DNA of 64,000 nt, from contig NZ_BEVZ01000007.1 of NCBI RefSeq assembly GCF_003112515.1, positions 124,001 to 188,000 on the forward strand. The letters are read 5' to 3'. Below, piece by piece: positions 44,215-50,673 of this stretch. The translations under genes and the position numbers were made by a program. This DNA is from Streptomyces fragilis (GTDB lineage: Bacteria; Actinomycetota; Actinomycetes; Streptomycetales; Streptomycetaceae). Under the pieces are notes generated by a model. That model worked only from the letters and a program-made list of their open reading frames with translations, did no database searches and was not told the DNA's origin. Numbering within the stretch: the first letter of the stretch is position 1; each line of letters starts with the position of its first letter.

Positions 44215-45018
44215 ATGCGACACGTCACCCGCAAGGGCCTGATGACCGTGGCGGCGGCGACCGGTGTCATCGCCGCGGCCGGAGGTCAGGCTCACGCCGA
44301 CGCCCACGCCGGCGGCTCCGCGGCCAACTCCCCCGGCGTGCTGTCGGGGAACACCGTGCAGGTGCCGGTGAACATCGGCGTCGACGTCTGCGGCAACACC
44401 GTGAACGTCGTGGGTCTGCTCAACCCCGCGGCCGGCAACGGCTGCGCGATCGGCGGCGGCCACGGCTCCGGCAAGCACGACGGCGGCAAGCACGACGGCG
44501 GGAAGCACGGCGGTGGCAAGCACCGCGGTGGCCACGACGGCCACGGTGGCGCGCACGCCGACGGCCGGAGCTCCGGCTCGCCCGGCGTGGGATCCGGCAA
44601 CACCGTCCAGGTGCCGGTGGACGTTCCGGTGAACGTCTGCGGCAACAGCGTCGACGTGGTCGGCCTCGGTAACGCCGCCGTGGGCAACGACTGCGTCAAC
44701 GAGGGCACCGGCCGCCACCGCAAGCCCCCGGCCACGCCGGAGCGGCCCGACGAGCCGGGGAAGCCCGGAAAGCCGGACACCCCCGACACTCCGGGCAAGC
44801 CCGGGAAGCCCGGCAAGCCGGGGACCCCGGACAGGCCCGACACACCCGGTTCCCCCGCGACCCCGGACACCCCCGGAGGACCCGCCCCGCACGGTGGCAC
44901 CCCGCCGCAGCTCGCCGAGACCGGCGCGGGCGTCCCGGCGGGAGCCGTGCTGCCGATCGGCGCGGGCGCGCTGCTGGCCGGCGTGATGCTCTTCCGCCGG
45001 GCGCGCGCCGCGGTGTGA
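44215..45018 (+). CDS. chpC: long chaplin with sortase signal (ChpC-like)
   Basis: 267 residues: a signal peptide (about 1-28), chaplin domain 1 (about 39-77), a His/Lys/Gly linker (79-117, four GKH units five residues apart), chaplin domain 2 (about 122-160), a Pro/Thr/Asp-rich wall-spanning segment with GKPGKP repeats (170-222), LAETG (233-237), a membrane helix and an RRARAAV tail. Sortase should anchor it to peptidoglycan, where it nucleates chaplin films. AGGAAG precedes the ATG. Confidence 0.95.
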   Translation: MRHVTRKGLMTVAAATGVIAAAGGQAHADAHAGGSAANSPGVLSGNTVQVPVNIGVDVCGNTVNVVGLLNPAAGNGCAIGGGHGSGKHDGGKHDGGKHGGGKHRGGHDGHGGAHADGRSSGSPGVGSGNTVQVPVDVPVNVCGNSVDVVGLGNAAVGNDCVNEGTGRHRKPPATPERPDEPGKPGKPDTPDTPGKPGKPGKPGTPDRPDTPGSPATPDTPGGPAPHGGTPPQLAETGAGVPAGAVLPIGAGALLAGVMLFRRARAAV

Positions 45019-45328: not shown

Positions 45329-45964
45329 ATGTCTGATGCTGCGCAGCCCACCGCTGCCGAGGTCCGTGCCGCCGTCGAGGCGGTCAAGGTCGCGCTCGAC
45401 CGTCACCTTGCGGCGGTCGAACGGCGGTCGGGTGAGGACGACCCGGCCGTCCACGAGGCGTTCAACCAGCTGGCCGCGGCGGCCGAGGTCTACGACGAGC
45501 TGCTGTACACCGTCCACGACGAGGTGACGCCGTTCGAGATTCCGGGGATCGAGGAGTCGCTCCCGCCGTACGAGGGACCGGCCGAGCCGCAGGCGGTCGG
45601 CGTGCTGATCCGGCGGGACTACACCGTCGTCGAGCCGCAGCGGCTGCTGGCCGCGGCGCGCCGGATCGAGGAGGCGGACGAGGACGTGGCCGACGACCTC
45701 GGCGACGACGCGTTCTCCCGGACGACGCACGGCGCGCTGGGGCTGCTGTTCGGCGAGTACGAGCCGGACGAGATCGCCTCGCGGCACCGGGAGTTCGGGC
45801 TGGAGGAGGGTGACTCCACGCTCTGGGTGACGGCGCAGGAGGAGCCCGCCGAGCCCGGTGAGTGGCTCGCCGCCCCCTTCGAGGCCGCGGACCCCGCCCA
45901 GGTCGTCTGCCGCTTCGACGTCTCCGCGGTGTTCGACGACGACCCCGACGACGACCTGGGCTGA
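45329..45964 (+). CDS. conserved hypothetical protein, acidic
   Basis: 211 residues from ATG 45329 (MSDAAQPTAA). Soluble, acidic, no signal peptide or membrane helix, with an Asp-rich tail (DDDPDDDLG). The N-terminal half looks helical; no catalytic motif stands out. I do not recognise the family. It may be leaderless. A terminator follows at 46054-46092. Confidence 0.8.
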   Translation: MSDAAQPTAAEVRAAVEAVKVALDRHLAAVERRSGEDDPAVHEAFNQLAAAAEVYDELLYTVHDEVTPFEIPGIEESLPPYEGPAEPQAVGVLIRRDYTVVEPQRLLAAARRIEEADEDVADDLGDDAFSRTTHGALGLLFGEYEPDEIASRHREFGLEEGDSTLWVTAQEEPAEPGEWLAAPFEAADPAQVVCRFDVSAVFDDDPDDDLG

Positions 45965-46105: not shown

Positions 46106-48454
46106 TCAGGCCTGGCGGGCGGCCCGCAGGAGGGCCGGGAGGCGGGTCGTGCGGGGCCTGGGCACGCCGGAGGCGACCGCCTCGGCGAGGGCCGGGCCGA
46201 CGCCCTGGACGACGGAGAGGTGCCGCTCCGCCCGGCCGAAGGCGGTGTACACCCACGCCCGGTCGAGCGCGGCCCCGGCGTCCCCGGGCAGCACCGCGAC
46301 GACGGCGGGCCAGCGCTGCCCGACCGCCTGGTGGGCCGTCACGGCCCAGCCGTGGCGCAGGGTGCGCTCGACGGCGTCCGGCGGGACCACGACGGCCGCT
46401 CCGGCCAGGTCGAGGTGGAGTCCTTCGGCGTCCCCCTTGGCGACGCGCCCCAGGACCGTGCGCCCCGGCTCCGGCGACCAGGCGACGCGGTCCCCGGGGT
46501 CGAAGCCGCCGAAGCGGCCGGGACCGGGGTTGAACCGCTCCTTGAGCGCGGCGTTCAGCACCCGGGTGCCGACCGCGCCGCCGTGGCCGGGGGTGAGGAC
46601 CTGGGTCTGCTCGGACGGGATCCCGATGGCCCGGGGCACCGAGTCCGCGATCAGCTGCACCGTCCGGTGCACCGCCTCGCGGGGGTCCCGGACCGGCACG
46701 ACGGCGACCTCGTGACCGGGCGACTCGACGGCGATCAGCTCGCCCACCCCGATCGCGGAGACCAGCTCCCCGACCGGCCCGGGGTCGGGCGTCCGGGAGG
46801 CCACCTGCGGGCAGACCTTGGCGGCCAGCAGGTCGGCGAAGACCCGGCCGGGCCCGGCCGACCACAGCACCCCCGGATCGCCGGTGAGCACCAGCCGGGC
46901 GCCGTCCGGCAGCGACTCCACCAGCACGGCGGCGCTCTCCACGCCGAGCTGGGGCGCGTCGAGCACCACCAGCAGGTCGAGGCCGAGCGCCCCGTCGGCG
47001 TCCCGGCCCGGGCCCTGGGCCCCGGACAGCAGCCCGGCGGTGGTGACGACGGCCCGCTCGTCCACGGGAGAGCCGGCCAGCGCGGCGCGCAGCCGGCGGC
47101 GGCCGTCCGCGGTGTGGGTGACGGCACAGACCCGCAGCCCCAGGGAGGCCGCGGCGGCGAGCAGCGCGGCGGGTTCGGCGCGGGCCGCCTCACCGCCGGT
47201 GTGCAGCACCAGCGCGTGGCCGGCGACGGCGCGGACCAGGTCCGCGGCGGAGCCGCGGAGCCGCGCGGCGGCGGCCTCCCAGCCGTCCGCCGAGCCGGTG
47301 GGCGTGGTGTTGACCAGGCGGGCCAGGCCGTCGGCGAGGCTCTCCTCGGCCAGGGCGTACCGCTCGAGTCCGACCAGCACCCGCACCGGGTGCTCCTCCT
47401 CGCCCTCCTGCTGGTCCCCCTCCGCGGCCGCGGACGGCGCGGGGGCGGGGGCGGGGACGGGGGTCGCGGCGGGCACGTCGTCCAGGGCGTCCTGGAACAC
47501 CAGCACGTCTCCCTCGGCCACGGCGCTCCGCACGGCGGCGTCCGGCTCGGGCACGCCCTGCGCGCCGAGGGCGGCGGCGAGAGCGGGCGCCTCCAGGGCG
47601 GTGTGCCCGGACAACGCCGCCCGCTCCAGCGCCCGGACCGTGAGGGCACGGCCGCGGCGCTCGTCGTCGGGACCGGCCTCGGATCCCAGCAGGGCGCGGG
47701 CGAAGGCGTCGGCGTGCTCCGGCCGCACTCCCTCGACCCGCAGCAGCTGCCAGGGGTCCTCGCGCAGCAGCGCGTCGGCGCCCTCGCCGAGCACGGCGGC
47801 GGCGGAGGGCGCGAGCGCCTCGGGGGCTCCCCCGGCCGCCAGGACGGCGCGGACGGCCTCCACGGCGGCCGGGTCGGGGCCGGTGGGGGCGGCGGCGGGC
47901 CGGGGGGCCGGGCGCTGCCGCTCGGGCTCCGGCACGGCGGGCCGGCGCGGGGCGGGCGGCTCACTGAACACGCTGCCCGCGGGCTTCTCGCCCTTCTCGA
48001 CGGCGCGCACCGCGGCGAGCAGCTCGGCGGCGGTGCCGGACAGCTTCCCGCCGGCCTCCACCGGGCCCTGCCTGGCCGCCTTGCGGCGCTCGATCCGCTC
48101 CCGCTCCAGCTTCTGCGCGAGCAGCTCGGCCTCCGCCTCGGACATCTCCGGCGCGGCGGCCTGCTCCCCGGCCGCGGGCGCCTCGCCCTCCCCGGACTCC
48201 GCCTCCGCGCCGCCCCCGGCGTCCTCCCCGGGCTCGGCCTCCTCGCTGCCACCCGCCTCCCCGGACTCCGCCTCCGCGCTGCCACCGGCCTCCCCGGGCT
48301 CCGGCTCGGCGCCGCCGCCCTCCCCGGCGGCGTCCTCCGAAGCCTCCTCCGCGACCGCCCCGGGGGTCTCGTCGGCGGGCCCGGTGGCGGTCCCGGCGCC
48401 CTCGTCCCGCGGCCCCGGCTCGGGTTGCTCCGTGGTCTCGGGGTCCGTCGTCAC
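46106..48454 (-). CDS. RecD2/TraA-like helicase homologue with degenerate ATPase motifs
   Basis: 782 residues. Residues 1-190 are acidic, Gly/Glu/Ala-rich and low-complexity. A helix-hairpin-helix-like segment (LLREDPWQLLRVEGV, about 229-243) and a RecD2-like fold follow, but motif I reads TGGEAARAEP (419-428) without the P-loop Lys, and the Walker B region reads VVLDAPQ (496-502) where RecD2 has V-V-D-E-A-S. GDPGVLWSAGPG (525-536) still echoes motif III, and a degenerate UvrD-like C-terminus (TAHQAVGQRWPAVVAVLPG) remains. It probably binds DNA without unwinding it. GTG 48454 overlaps the aldo/keto reductase stop (GTGA), so the two are coupled. Confidence 0.8.
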   Translation of the reverse strand: MTTDPETTEQPEPGPRDEGAGTATGPADETPGAVAEEASEDAAGEGGGAEPEPGEAGGSAEAESGEAGGSEEAEPGEDAGGGAEAESGEGEAPAAGEQAAAPEMSEAEAELLAQKLERERIERRKAARQGPVEAGGKLSGTAAELLAAVRAVEKGEKPAGSVFSEPPAPRRPAVPEPERQRPAPRPAAAPTGPDPAAVEAVRAVLAAGGAPEALAPSAAAVLGEGADALLREDPWQLLRVEGVRPEHADAFARALLGSEAGPDDERRGRALTVRALERAALSGHTALEAPALAAALGAQGVPEPDAAVRSAVAEGDVLVFQDALDDVPAATPVPAPAPAPSAAAEGDQQEGEEEHPVRVLVGLERYALAEESLADGLARLVNTTPTGSADGWEAAAARLRGSAADLVRAVAGHALVLHTGGEAARAEPAALLAAAASLGLRVCAVTHTADGRRRLRAALAGSPVDERAVVTTAGLLSGAQGPGRDADGALGLDLLVVLDAPQLGVESAAVLVESLPDGARLVLTGDPGVLWSAGPGRVFADLLAAKVCPQVASRTPDPGPVGELVSAIGVGELIAVESPGHEVAVVPVRDPREAVHRTVQLIADSVPRAIGIPSEQTQVLTPGHGGAVGTRVLNAALKERFNPGPGRFGGFDPGDRVAWSPEPGRTVLGRVAKGDAEGLHLDLAGAAVVVPPDAVERTLRHGWAVTAHQAVGQRWPAVVAVLPGDAGAALDRAWVYTAFGRAERHLSVVQGVGPALAEAVASGVPRPRTTRLPALLRAARQA

Positions 48455-49434
48455 AGCGTGCTCCAGTCGTGATCGGGATAGCGGTGCTCGGGCGCCGACA
48501 CGTCGTCGAGAGCCCTGCAGATCTCGTCCGGAAGCGTAAGCGTCTCCACCGACAGTGCCGCCTCCAGCTGCTGCGGCGTGCGCGCCCCGACGATCGGGGC
48601 GGTCACTCCGGGCCGGTCGCGGATCCAGGCCAGCGACACCTGGAGCGGCGTGACCGCCAGCCCGTCGGCGGCGGTGGCGACCGCGTCGACGATGCGCGCG
48701 GCGGCGTCGTCGAGGTACGGGGCGACGAAGGGGGCGAGCTGCTCGGAGCCGCCGCGCGAGTCGGCGGGAGTGCCGGTGCGGTACTTGCCGGTGAGCACGC
48801 CGCGCCCGAGCGGCGAGGACGGCAGCAGGCCGATCCCGAGCTCCTTCGCGGCGGGCAGCACCTCGCGCTCGACGCCGCGCTGCAGCAGCGAGTACTCCAT
48901 CTGGGTGCCGGCGAGCGCGGTCCGCGCGCCGGGGGCGGCGAGCTGCCAGGTGGCCGCCCGCGCGAGCTGCCAGCCGCAGAAGTTGGAGACCCCTACGTAG
49001 CGGGCCCGGCCGCTGGTCACGGCGATGTCGAGGGCCTGCAGCGTCTCCTCGAGCGGGGTGCAGTCGTCGTACGCGTGCACCTGCCACAGGTCGACGTGGT
49101 CGGTGCCGAGGCGGGCGAGCGAGGCGTCGAGGGCGGCCAGCAGGTGGCCGCGCGAGCCGTCGACCCGGCGCTCGGGGTCCGGCACGCTGCCCGCCTTGGT
49201 GGAGATGACCAGGTCCTCGCGCGGCACGAGGTCGGCGAGCAGCCTGCCCAGCAGGTACTCGGCCTCGCCCCCGCCGTATATGTCGGCGGTGTCGACCAGG
49301 GTGCCGCCGGCCTCCCAGAACGTCCTCAACAGGTCGGCCGCCTCGTGCTCCTCGGTGTCCCGGCCCCAGGTGAGGGTGCCGAGCCCGATGCGGGACACGC
49401 GCAGGCCGGTCCGGCCGAGATGCCTCTGCTTCAT
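48451..49434 (-). CDS. aldo/keto reductase
   Basis: 327 residues of the AKR TIM-barrel family. The catalytic tetrad is visible: Asp and Tyr in DTADIYGGGEAEYLLG, Lys in VISTKAG, and His in WQVHAYDD; PIVGARTPQQLE at the C-terminus binds NADPH. ATG 49434 (MKQRHLGRTGL) matches the family N-terminus; upstream ATGs give short extensions. The stop overlaps the RecD2-like gene. The substrate is unknown. Confidence 0.93.
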   Translation of the reverse strand: MKQRHLGRTGLRVSRIGLGTLTWGRDTEEHEAADLLRTFWEAGGTLVDTADIYGGGEAEYLLGRLLADLVPREDLVISTKAGSVPDPERRVDGSRGHLLAALDASLARLGTDHVDLWQVHAYDDCTPLEETLQALDIAVTSGRARYVGVSNFCGWQLARAATWQLAAPGARTALAGTQMEYSLLQRGVEREVLPAAKELGIGLLPSSPLGRGVLTGKYRTGTPADSRGGSEQLAPFVAPYLDDAAARIVDAVATAADGLAVTPLQVSLAWIRDRPGVTAPIVGARTPQQLEAALSVETLTLPDEICRALDDVSAPEHRYPDHDWSTL

Positions 49435-49617: not shown

Positions 49618-50673
49618 ATGCGGCTCGGGATCAACCTCGGCTACTGGGGCGCCGGAATGGACTTGGACAACCTGGAGGTGGCCAAGGAGGCCGACCGTCT
49701 GGGTTACTCCGTCTGCTGGGCCGCGGAGGCCTACGGCTCCGACGCCGCCACGGTGCTCAGCTGGGTCGCGGCCCAGACGGAGCGCATCGACGTGGGTTCG
49801 GCGATCTTCCAGATCCCGGCCCGTCAGCCCGCGATGACGGCGATGACCGCGGCCACCCTGGACTCCCTCTCCGGCGGCCGTTTCCGCCTGGGTCTGGGCG
49901 TCTCGGGCCCGCAGGTCTCCGAGGGCTGGTACGGCGTCAAGTTCGACAAGCCGCTCGCCCGTACGCGTGAGTACGTGGAGATCATCCGCAAGGCGATGAC
50001 CCGTGAGCGCCTGTCCTACGAGGGCCAGCACTGGACGCTGCCGCTGCCGGGCGGCCCGGGCAAGCCGCTGAAGCTGACCGTGCACCCGGAGCGCGAGCAC
50101 ATCCCGGTCTACATCGCGGCGATCGGCCCGAAGAACCTGGAGCAGACCGGCGAGATCGCGGACGGCGCGCTGCTGATCTTCCCGTCGGCCGACCACCTCG
50201 AGGAGACGGCGGTCCAGCACATCCGCGCGGGCCGCGAGAAGGTGGGCAAGACGCTGGAGGGCTTCGACATCGTCCCCACGCTGCCGCTGGCCGTGGGCGA
50301 GGACAAGGACGTCCCGGCGCTGGCCGACGCCTTCCGCCCCTACACCGCGCTGTACGTCGGCGGCATGGGCAGCCGGAAGCAGAACTTCTACAACCAGCTC
50401 GCCCAGCGCATGGGCTACGAGGAGGCCGCCGCCGCGATCCAGGACAAGTACCTGGCCGGCGACAAGGACGGCGCGGCCGCCGCGGTTCCGCAGGACCTGA
50501 TCGACAGCACCACCCTGCTGGGCTCCGTGGACCGGATCGCCGACCGGATGAAGGCCTACGCCGCCGCCGGCGTCACCACCCTGACCCTGGCCCCGGCCGG
50601 CTTCACGCTCGAGGAGCGGATCACCGCGCTGCGCGCCGGCATGGAGGCCCTGGAGCGCGCCGGCCTCGCCTGA
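49618..50673 (+). CDS. LLM-class F420-dependent oxidoreductase
   Basis: 351 residues of the luciferase-like monooxygenase TIM barrel, of the subgroup that uses cofactor F420 in actinobacteria (LGINLGYWG start, WAAEAYGSDAATVLSWVAA, SGGRFRLGLGVSGPQV). ATG 49618 has AAGGGGAG upstream. It stands alone, so its substrate cannot be inferred. A TAGGGT at 49571-49576 may be its -10 box. F420 dependence is inferred from family, not shown. Confidence 0.9.
   Translation: MRLGINLGYWGAGMDLDNLEVAKEADRLGYSVCWAAEAYGSDAATVLSWVAAQTERIDVGSAIFQIPARQPAMTAMTAATLDSLSGGRFRLGLGVSGPQVSEGWYGVKFDKPLARTREYVEIIRKAMTRERLSYEGQHWTLPLPGGPGKPLKLTVHPEREHIPVYIAAIGPKNLEQTGEIADGALLIFPSADHLEETAVQHIRAGREKVGKTLEGFDIVPTLPLAVGEDKDVPALADAFRPYTALYVGGMGSRKQNFYNQLAQRMGYEEAAAAIQDKYLAGDKDGAAAAVPQDLIDSTTLLGSVDRIADRMKAYAAAGVTTLTLAPAGFTLEERITALRAGMEALERAGLA

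Follow-up and report, generated by a model that had tools for sequence, protein, structure and literature searches.

Why would a bacterium keep a helicase that has lost its motor? The question is raised by a gene in the window analysed here, a stretch of 64,000 nucleotides from a Streptomyces fragilis contig. The gene (46106..48454, minus strand) starts with a GTG codon and encodes, in an uninterrupted frame, a protein of 782 aa derived from RecD2 and devoid of Walker A and B residues. Its nearest relative is found in S. abyssomicinicus (78% identity in the initial search, 83% in the full-length alignment). An earlier note on this DNA described the product as a RecD2-like helicase without ATPase motifs and proposed that it serves as a DNA-bound scaffold or as the partner of an active helicase, a role which is plausible.

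The kinship with RecD2 was borne out by both profile and structure comparisons. A Pfam scan gave matches above the cut-off to HHH_RecD2 (39.5 bits; residues 198-285, 47600..47863, minus strand) and UvrD_C_2 (29.8 bits; residues 701-749, 46208..46354, minus strand), the latter including motif VI, VYTAFGRAERHL, with its Arg retained; an AAA_30 match of 21.5 bits lay below the cut-off of 27. A search of the PDB returned Deinococcus radiodurans RecD2 (3e1s, E 1.7e-15). The score against the NCBIfam RecD2 profile TIGR01448 was 96.3 bits in the protein scan and 80.2 bits in the genome scan, and did not reach the cut-off of 500. An AlphaFold (AF2) model of the core (residues 189-782), built with 34 orthologues, had a mean pLDDT of 85 and a pTM of 0.84. 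Its best matches among solved structures were all RecD2: 3e1s (Z 30.3, rmsd 2.9, 478 residues aligned), 3gp8 (Z 28.6) and 3gpl (Z 28.4); the first match outside RecD2 was RecD of RecBCD (Z 20.5). The predicted structure thus comprises the helical domain and the SF1B fold, and the protein retains two RecA-like domains, the SH3 insert and the RecD2 helical domain. The N-terminal OB domain (OB_YrrC) and the first tandem HhH region gave no Pfam match, while the normal RecD2 of the same genome matches both OB_YrrC and HHH_5. The gene is therefore open, as the earlier note had stated, but not full length by the standard of RecD2.

The residues of the motor are indeed missing. Aligned with the normal RecD2 of its own genome, the former P-loop (TGGEAARAEP, residues 419-428; 47171..47200, minus strand) has Ala for the Walker A Lys and Glu for the Ser, and is two residues shorter than in intact forms. 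The former Walker B motif (VVLDAPQ, residues 496-502; 46949..46969, minus strand) has Leu for Asp and Asp for Glu. Gln of motif III (GDPGVLWSAGPGRV, residues 525-538; 46841..46882, minus strand) is replaced by Val, with Gly-Asp retained, and Glu of motif V (TAHQAVGQRWP, residues 706-716; 46307..46339, minus strand) is replaced by Arg, with Thr, His and Gly retained. Both motif readings of the earlier note, a P-loop without Lys-Thr and a Walker B without Asp-Glu, are hereby confirmed. Misreading or misalignment of the P-loop was ruled out, as GxxxxGK[ST] occurs nowhere else in the frame of any motor-less row (0 of 65 members of the clade).

These changes, which the earlier note proposed to follow among orthologues, are fixed across Streptomyces. 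The P-loop signature is missing in all 28 loci of the first search and in all 31 rows of the second alignment, and those 28 loci as well as each of 25 further sampled genomes carry the same replaced motifs, TGGEA[AS]RxEP and DAPQ, with minor variants. In 31/31 Streptomyces other residues stand in place of Lys and Ser of Walker A, Asp and Glu of Walker B, Gln of motif III and Glu of motif V (the last replaced by Arg in every one scored), while all six are intact in all scorable orthologues of other families, here called RecD2b (n=22; motif V n=21). Streptomyces retain Gly-Asp of motif III, Arg of motif IV, Thr (30/31), His and Gly of motif V, and Arg of motif VI; their motif Ia is degraded. The residues lost here face ATP in SF1 helicases, and motif V Thr and His face DNA. 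ATPase activity has, to judge by these replacements, most probably gone. The mean modal frequency within the genus is 0.91 for former motif I and 0.92 for former motif II, compared with 0.79 for the core. Among the Nocardiopsis-type sequences (family f17) the motif V His is gone in 19/19, so the residues of the DNA cleft are not kept across the whole motor-less clade.

The gene was found in 41/41 genomes of the window's order. Relatives were sought in a wider sample of 246 genomes of the class, whose families are cited here by code. Dead forms occur in Streptomyces, in f2 and f3 of the same order, in f17 (Nocardiopsis- and Streptomonospora-type sequences) and in one f10 genome. The replacement residues of the relatives in the window's order and in Nocardiopsis/Streptomonospora differ from those of Streptomyces; nine f3 rows even keep Lys-Thr (APGIAKTA), but the glycines on either side of it are gone, as is Walker B. 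The gene is intact at every motif in f9, f14, f16 and f18, and in f12 as far as the copy runs, which ends before motif V. It is missing in 9 of 24 sampled f17 genomes and is therefore dispensable there; in one single-contig genome (G170) only the normal RecD2 was seen.

In a tree rooted on normal RecD2 and computed without the columns of motifs I and II, the 44 dead rows come together on a single branch (support 100/100) that arises from within the intact ones. Once every motif region is masked (354 columns, the long row L105 excluded) they still group as one (95/98; 93% of bootstrap trees), and we reject the view that the clustering is an artefact of the motif columns. Since the dead proteins remain one clade even without these columns, the simplest reading is that ATPase activity was lost once, before the two orders split, and that each lineage then decayed separately, although two losses in neighbouring branches are possible. 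The earlier note held that orthologues with intact P-loops would mark this copy as a decaying allele. Such orthologues do exist in other actinobacterial families, in four of them at the same AKR locus, but no Streptomyces copy was seen intact, and they hence speak for descent from a working helicase, whose activity is suggested by its motifs. The nearest intact relatives in the tree, RecD2b of f9, f12, f14 and f16, score 325-437 bits against TIGR01448 and share the lack of an OB domain; they differ in having all catalytic residues and, in most cases, an HhH-like region that precedes the HHH domain. Two dead copies, L120 and L105, are highly divergent and sit on long branches; L105 retains the Streptomyces gene order, although its genome carries the code f10.

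Based on these observations, we suggest that the protein very probably has a useful job for which no motor is needed, and we consider it probable that it is an ancient, fixed pseudohelicase, most likely working without a motor as a module for binding DNA (single-stranded or forked), a partner in repair or replication, or both. The starting point would have been a second actinobacterial SF1B helicase of the RecD2 type, RecD2b, encoded beside an aldo/keto reductase (AKR) gene. It would have lost the residues for ATP binding and hydrolysis together with the N-terminal tandem HhH, most simply in a single event that preceded the separation of the window's order from the Nocardiopsis type, and a separate normal RecD2 would have stayed in the cell for motor work. 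What remained could bind DNA or a partner without translocation, and SSB, RecA and the normal RecD2 are candidate partners by analogy with RecD2; that it binds DNA, with which partner and in which pathway it works, is what we infer. We favour such an adaptor because RecD2 of Bacillus subtilis binds to ssDNA and to forks and reportedly associates with SSB and RecA (PMC12143592), and because PriA of D. radiodurans, which has lost motifs I and II and has no ATPase, still binds DNA and DnaB (PMC4504706). Several observations count against this reading: the first tandem HhH region, a likely DNA-binding part of RecD2, is gone, motif Ia has decayed in Streptomyces, f17 has lost the motif V His and in part the gene itself, and evolution is faster than in the intact form. 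Tentatively, one may also picture a RecD2 paralogue turned, before two actinobacterial orders parted, into a dedicated non-motor DNA-maintenance factor, the former ATP site (TGGEAxRxEP/DAPQ) having become a new conserved binding surface and the reductase being co-translated. An equally tentative part of this picture is that the conversion was RecC-like or PriA-like, with intact orthologues still at the same locus elsewhere.

The AKR gene (48451..49434, minus strand) lies directly upstream. Its stop codon TGA (48451-48453) overlaps the first codon of the pseudohelicase (48452-48454) as GTGA (48451..48454, minus strand), and an overlap of this type was seen in 21 of 25 Streptomyces loci checked, which agrees with the translational coupling proposed in the earlier note. 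Divergent from the AKR gene runs a flavin/F420-type oxidoreductase gene, identified by resemblance rather than by a profile scan (49618..50673, plus strand). The AKR partner is conserved in the dead lineages and in most intact lineages other than f18, whose intact gene is without this neighbourhood. In f9, f12, f14 and f16 the intact gene adjoins the same AKR gene directly, or lies about 1 kb off in a few cases, which makes orthology strong; the F420-type oxidoreductase holds the same position in dead and several intact lineages and most often accompanies the AKR locus of these four families. The pairing with AKR predates the loss of the motor, and the link alone therefore does not explain the dead form.

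This old pairing, conserved across families, would nevertheless suit an account that we regard as rather unlikely, namely that the fold has become a protein-protein scaffold or a regulator that does not bind DNA and perhaps shares a pathway with the co-translated AKR. Degradation of the DNA-facing motif Ia (and, in the Nocardiopsis type, of motif V), the net acidity of domain 1A plus HHH and the new conservation of former P-loop residues all point in the same direction. However, Streptomyces retain Thr, His and Gly of motif V, the Arg of motif VI and the 2A/SH3 block, domain 1A is similarly acidic in intact orthologues, and the intact forms adjoin the same AKR, so that the pairing requires no new role away from DNA.

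A normal RecD2 is encoded elsewhere in the window's genome (TIGR01448, 835 bits in the genome scan). A second, RecD2-type match was present in 26/26 Streptomyces genomes searched, the window's own included, where it was confirmed as a normal RecD2, and all tested genomes of f2, f3, f17 and f18 have a normal RecD2 above the family cut-off. None of the 11 tested genomes of f9, f12, f14 and f16 has a normal RecD2 above that cut-off, and intact RecD2b is their best RecD2-type protein. This distribution, with a normal RecD2 in the dead lineages and none above cut-off in the 11 genomes that have intact RecD2b only, would fit a dead paralogue acting as partner or negative regulator of the normal enzyme, by competing for forks or pairing with it. 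We find this improbable, as f18 possesses a normal RecD2 alongside an intact RecD2b, showing that coexistence needs no dead partner, and as the one f10 genome, a fragmented assembly, carries a dead copy but no RecD2 of the normal kind above cut-off. Redundancy may thus permit the loss of the motor, but, since f18 keeps both proteins intact, does not dictate it. Besides the usual RecD2 and the dead RecD2b, f3 genomes carry an extra RecD2 above the cut-off (637-697 bits; G013:C43:24141-26303, G007:C103:2656-4761 and G017:C1:9231869-9234016).

Is the gene simply on its way out? When the window core was compared with six Streptomyces orthologues, NG86 dN/dS was 0.21-0.30, against 0.11-0.21 for AKR and 0.17-0.47 for a downstream gene of 212 aa, all values being rough in such GC-rich DNA. 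Constraint is present but looser than in intact relatives: where AKR identity is 0.75-0.80, the core reaches an identity of 0.62 in Streptomyces, compared with 0.70 in intact lineages, and of 0.41 in f2/f3, meaning that the dead form evolves somewhat faster than the intact one, with some relaxation, and much faster in f2/f3. This acceleration, the absence from part of f17 and apparent frameshifts at two loci are what a functionless relic drifting to loss would leave, an idea that we consider very improbable. The frame is open in essentially all sampled Streptomyces, dN/dS is 0.2-0.3, and the gene is present in all 41 genomes of the order, with its start/stop overlap kept and its former motif residues near-invariant. 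A decaying allele is rejected on the same grounds, and a decaying pseudogene with disrupted frames and patchy presence in the genus is not what was found. The long retention of a motor-less helicase fold, on which the earlier note had built its case, is accordingly substantiated by motifs fixed in the genus, a clade spanning two orders, purifying selection and a former P-loop conserved above the core average. The two apparently broken frames are in Streptomyces sp. I6 (L026 4001-6011) and in one f17 genome (G232; L125 3786-5637), each a frameshift or a sequencing error.

That nucleotide is still bound or hydrolysed at a non-canonical site is hardly credible: the strongly conserved replacement loop TGGEAxRxE and the motif IV and VI Arg kept in Streptomyces might suggest it, but none of Lys, Ser/Thr, Asp and Glu remains, the loop has shrunk by two residues and motif V Glu is Arg in all scored Streptomyces.

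The acidic head of 190 residues that the earlier note had singled out shrinks on inspection. Only residues 1-100 (48155..48454, minus strand) are strongly acidic (net charge -28) and of low complexity, and residues 101-194 are near neutral. Among Streptomyces the acidic stretch varies from about 4 to 125 residues, and in the full-length model residues 1-100 have a pLDDT below 40 and are predicted to be disordered; a shared functional domain was therefore rejected as a general feature. Two helices are predicted at residues 106-127 and 141-153, inside the region 104-160 (47975..48145, minus strand), the second of which (AAELLAAVRAVEsGek) is conserved even in proteins without an acidic head.

Pseudohelicases as a class are already known. 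RecC and AddB are motor-dead SF1 folds in RecBCD and AddAB, where they are SF1A-derived subunits of nuclease complexes, and they resemble the present protein in being dead SF1 helicase folds retained for something other than motor work; no RecBCD/AddAB-type partner genes were seen beside the pseudohelicase locus. PriA is an SF2-type primosome protein. The D. radiodurans PriA is likewise a bacterial helicase with lineage-wide loss of motifs I and II and offers a precedent for retained DNA binding, but the present lineage retains a normal paralogue and its losses are more extensive. With RecD2 itself (TIGR01448; 3e1s/3gp8, B. subtilis) the protein has in common the HHH/1A/2A/SH3 fold, motif III Gly-Asp, motif V Thr/His/Gly and motif VI Arg; it differs by the absence of Walker A/B residues, OB and first HhH pair, by 80-96 bits against a cut-off of 500, and by the separate normal RecD2 in its genome. 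The literature searched, mostly openly readable papers, held no description of a RecD2 pseudohelicase, although an earlier report is possible; a search on SCO1670-SCO1673, which we take to be the Streptomyces coelicolor locus, gave nothing. Annotation of the gene as "helicase" would be wrong. It is a nearly universal candidate DNA-maintenance factor of an industrially important genus, for which no study was found. Intact and dead orthologues share one neighbourhood, the dead clade is single and supported, and the cell also has a normal paralogue; together this amounts to a natural experiment, in which the worth of a helicase fold without its motor is directly testable.

The 212-aa gene (45329..45964, plus strand) encodes a conserved protein of unassigned family, with no match in Pfam or NCBIfam. 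In nearly all Streptomyces loci it runs convergently to the pseudohelicase, and it is weakly present in several f2/f3 loci and in f10. On contig NZ_LOHS01000036.1 of S. jeddahensis two loci (L014 and L016) are inverted, equal-scoring and overlapping in range, representing either an inverted duplication or an assembly artefact. Elsewhere in the window, 44215-45018 (plus strand) encodes, by eye, a long secreted protein that resembles chaplins, with two repeats of chaplin type and a tail, LAETG, of sortase-like type; most of the Streptomyces loci that extend far enough have a gene of this kind near the pseudohelicase, and f2 (L075) and f10 (L105) have it weakly.
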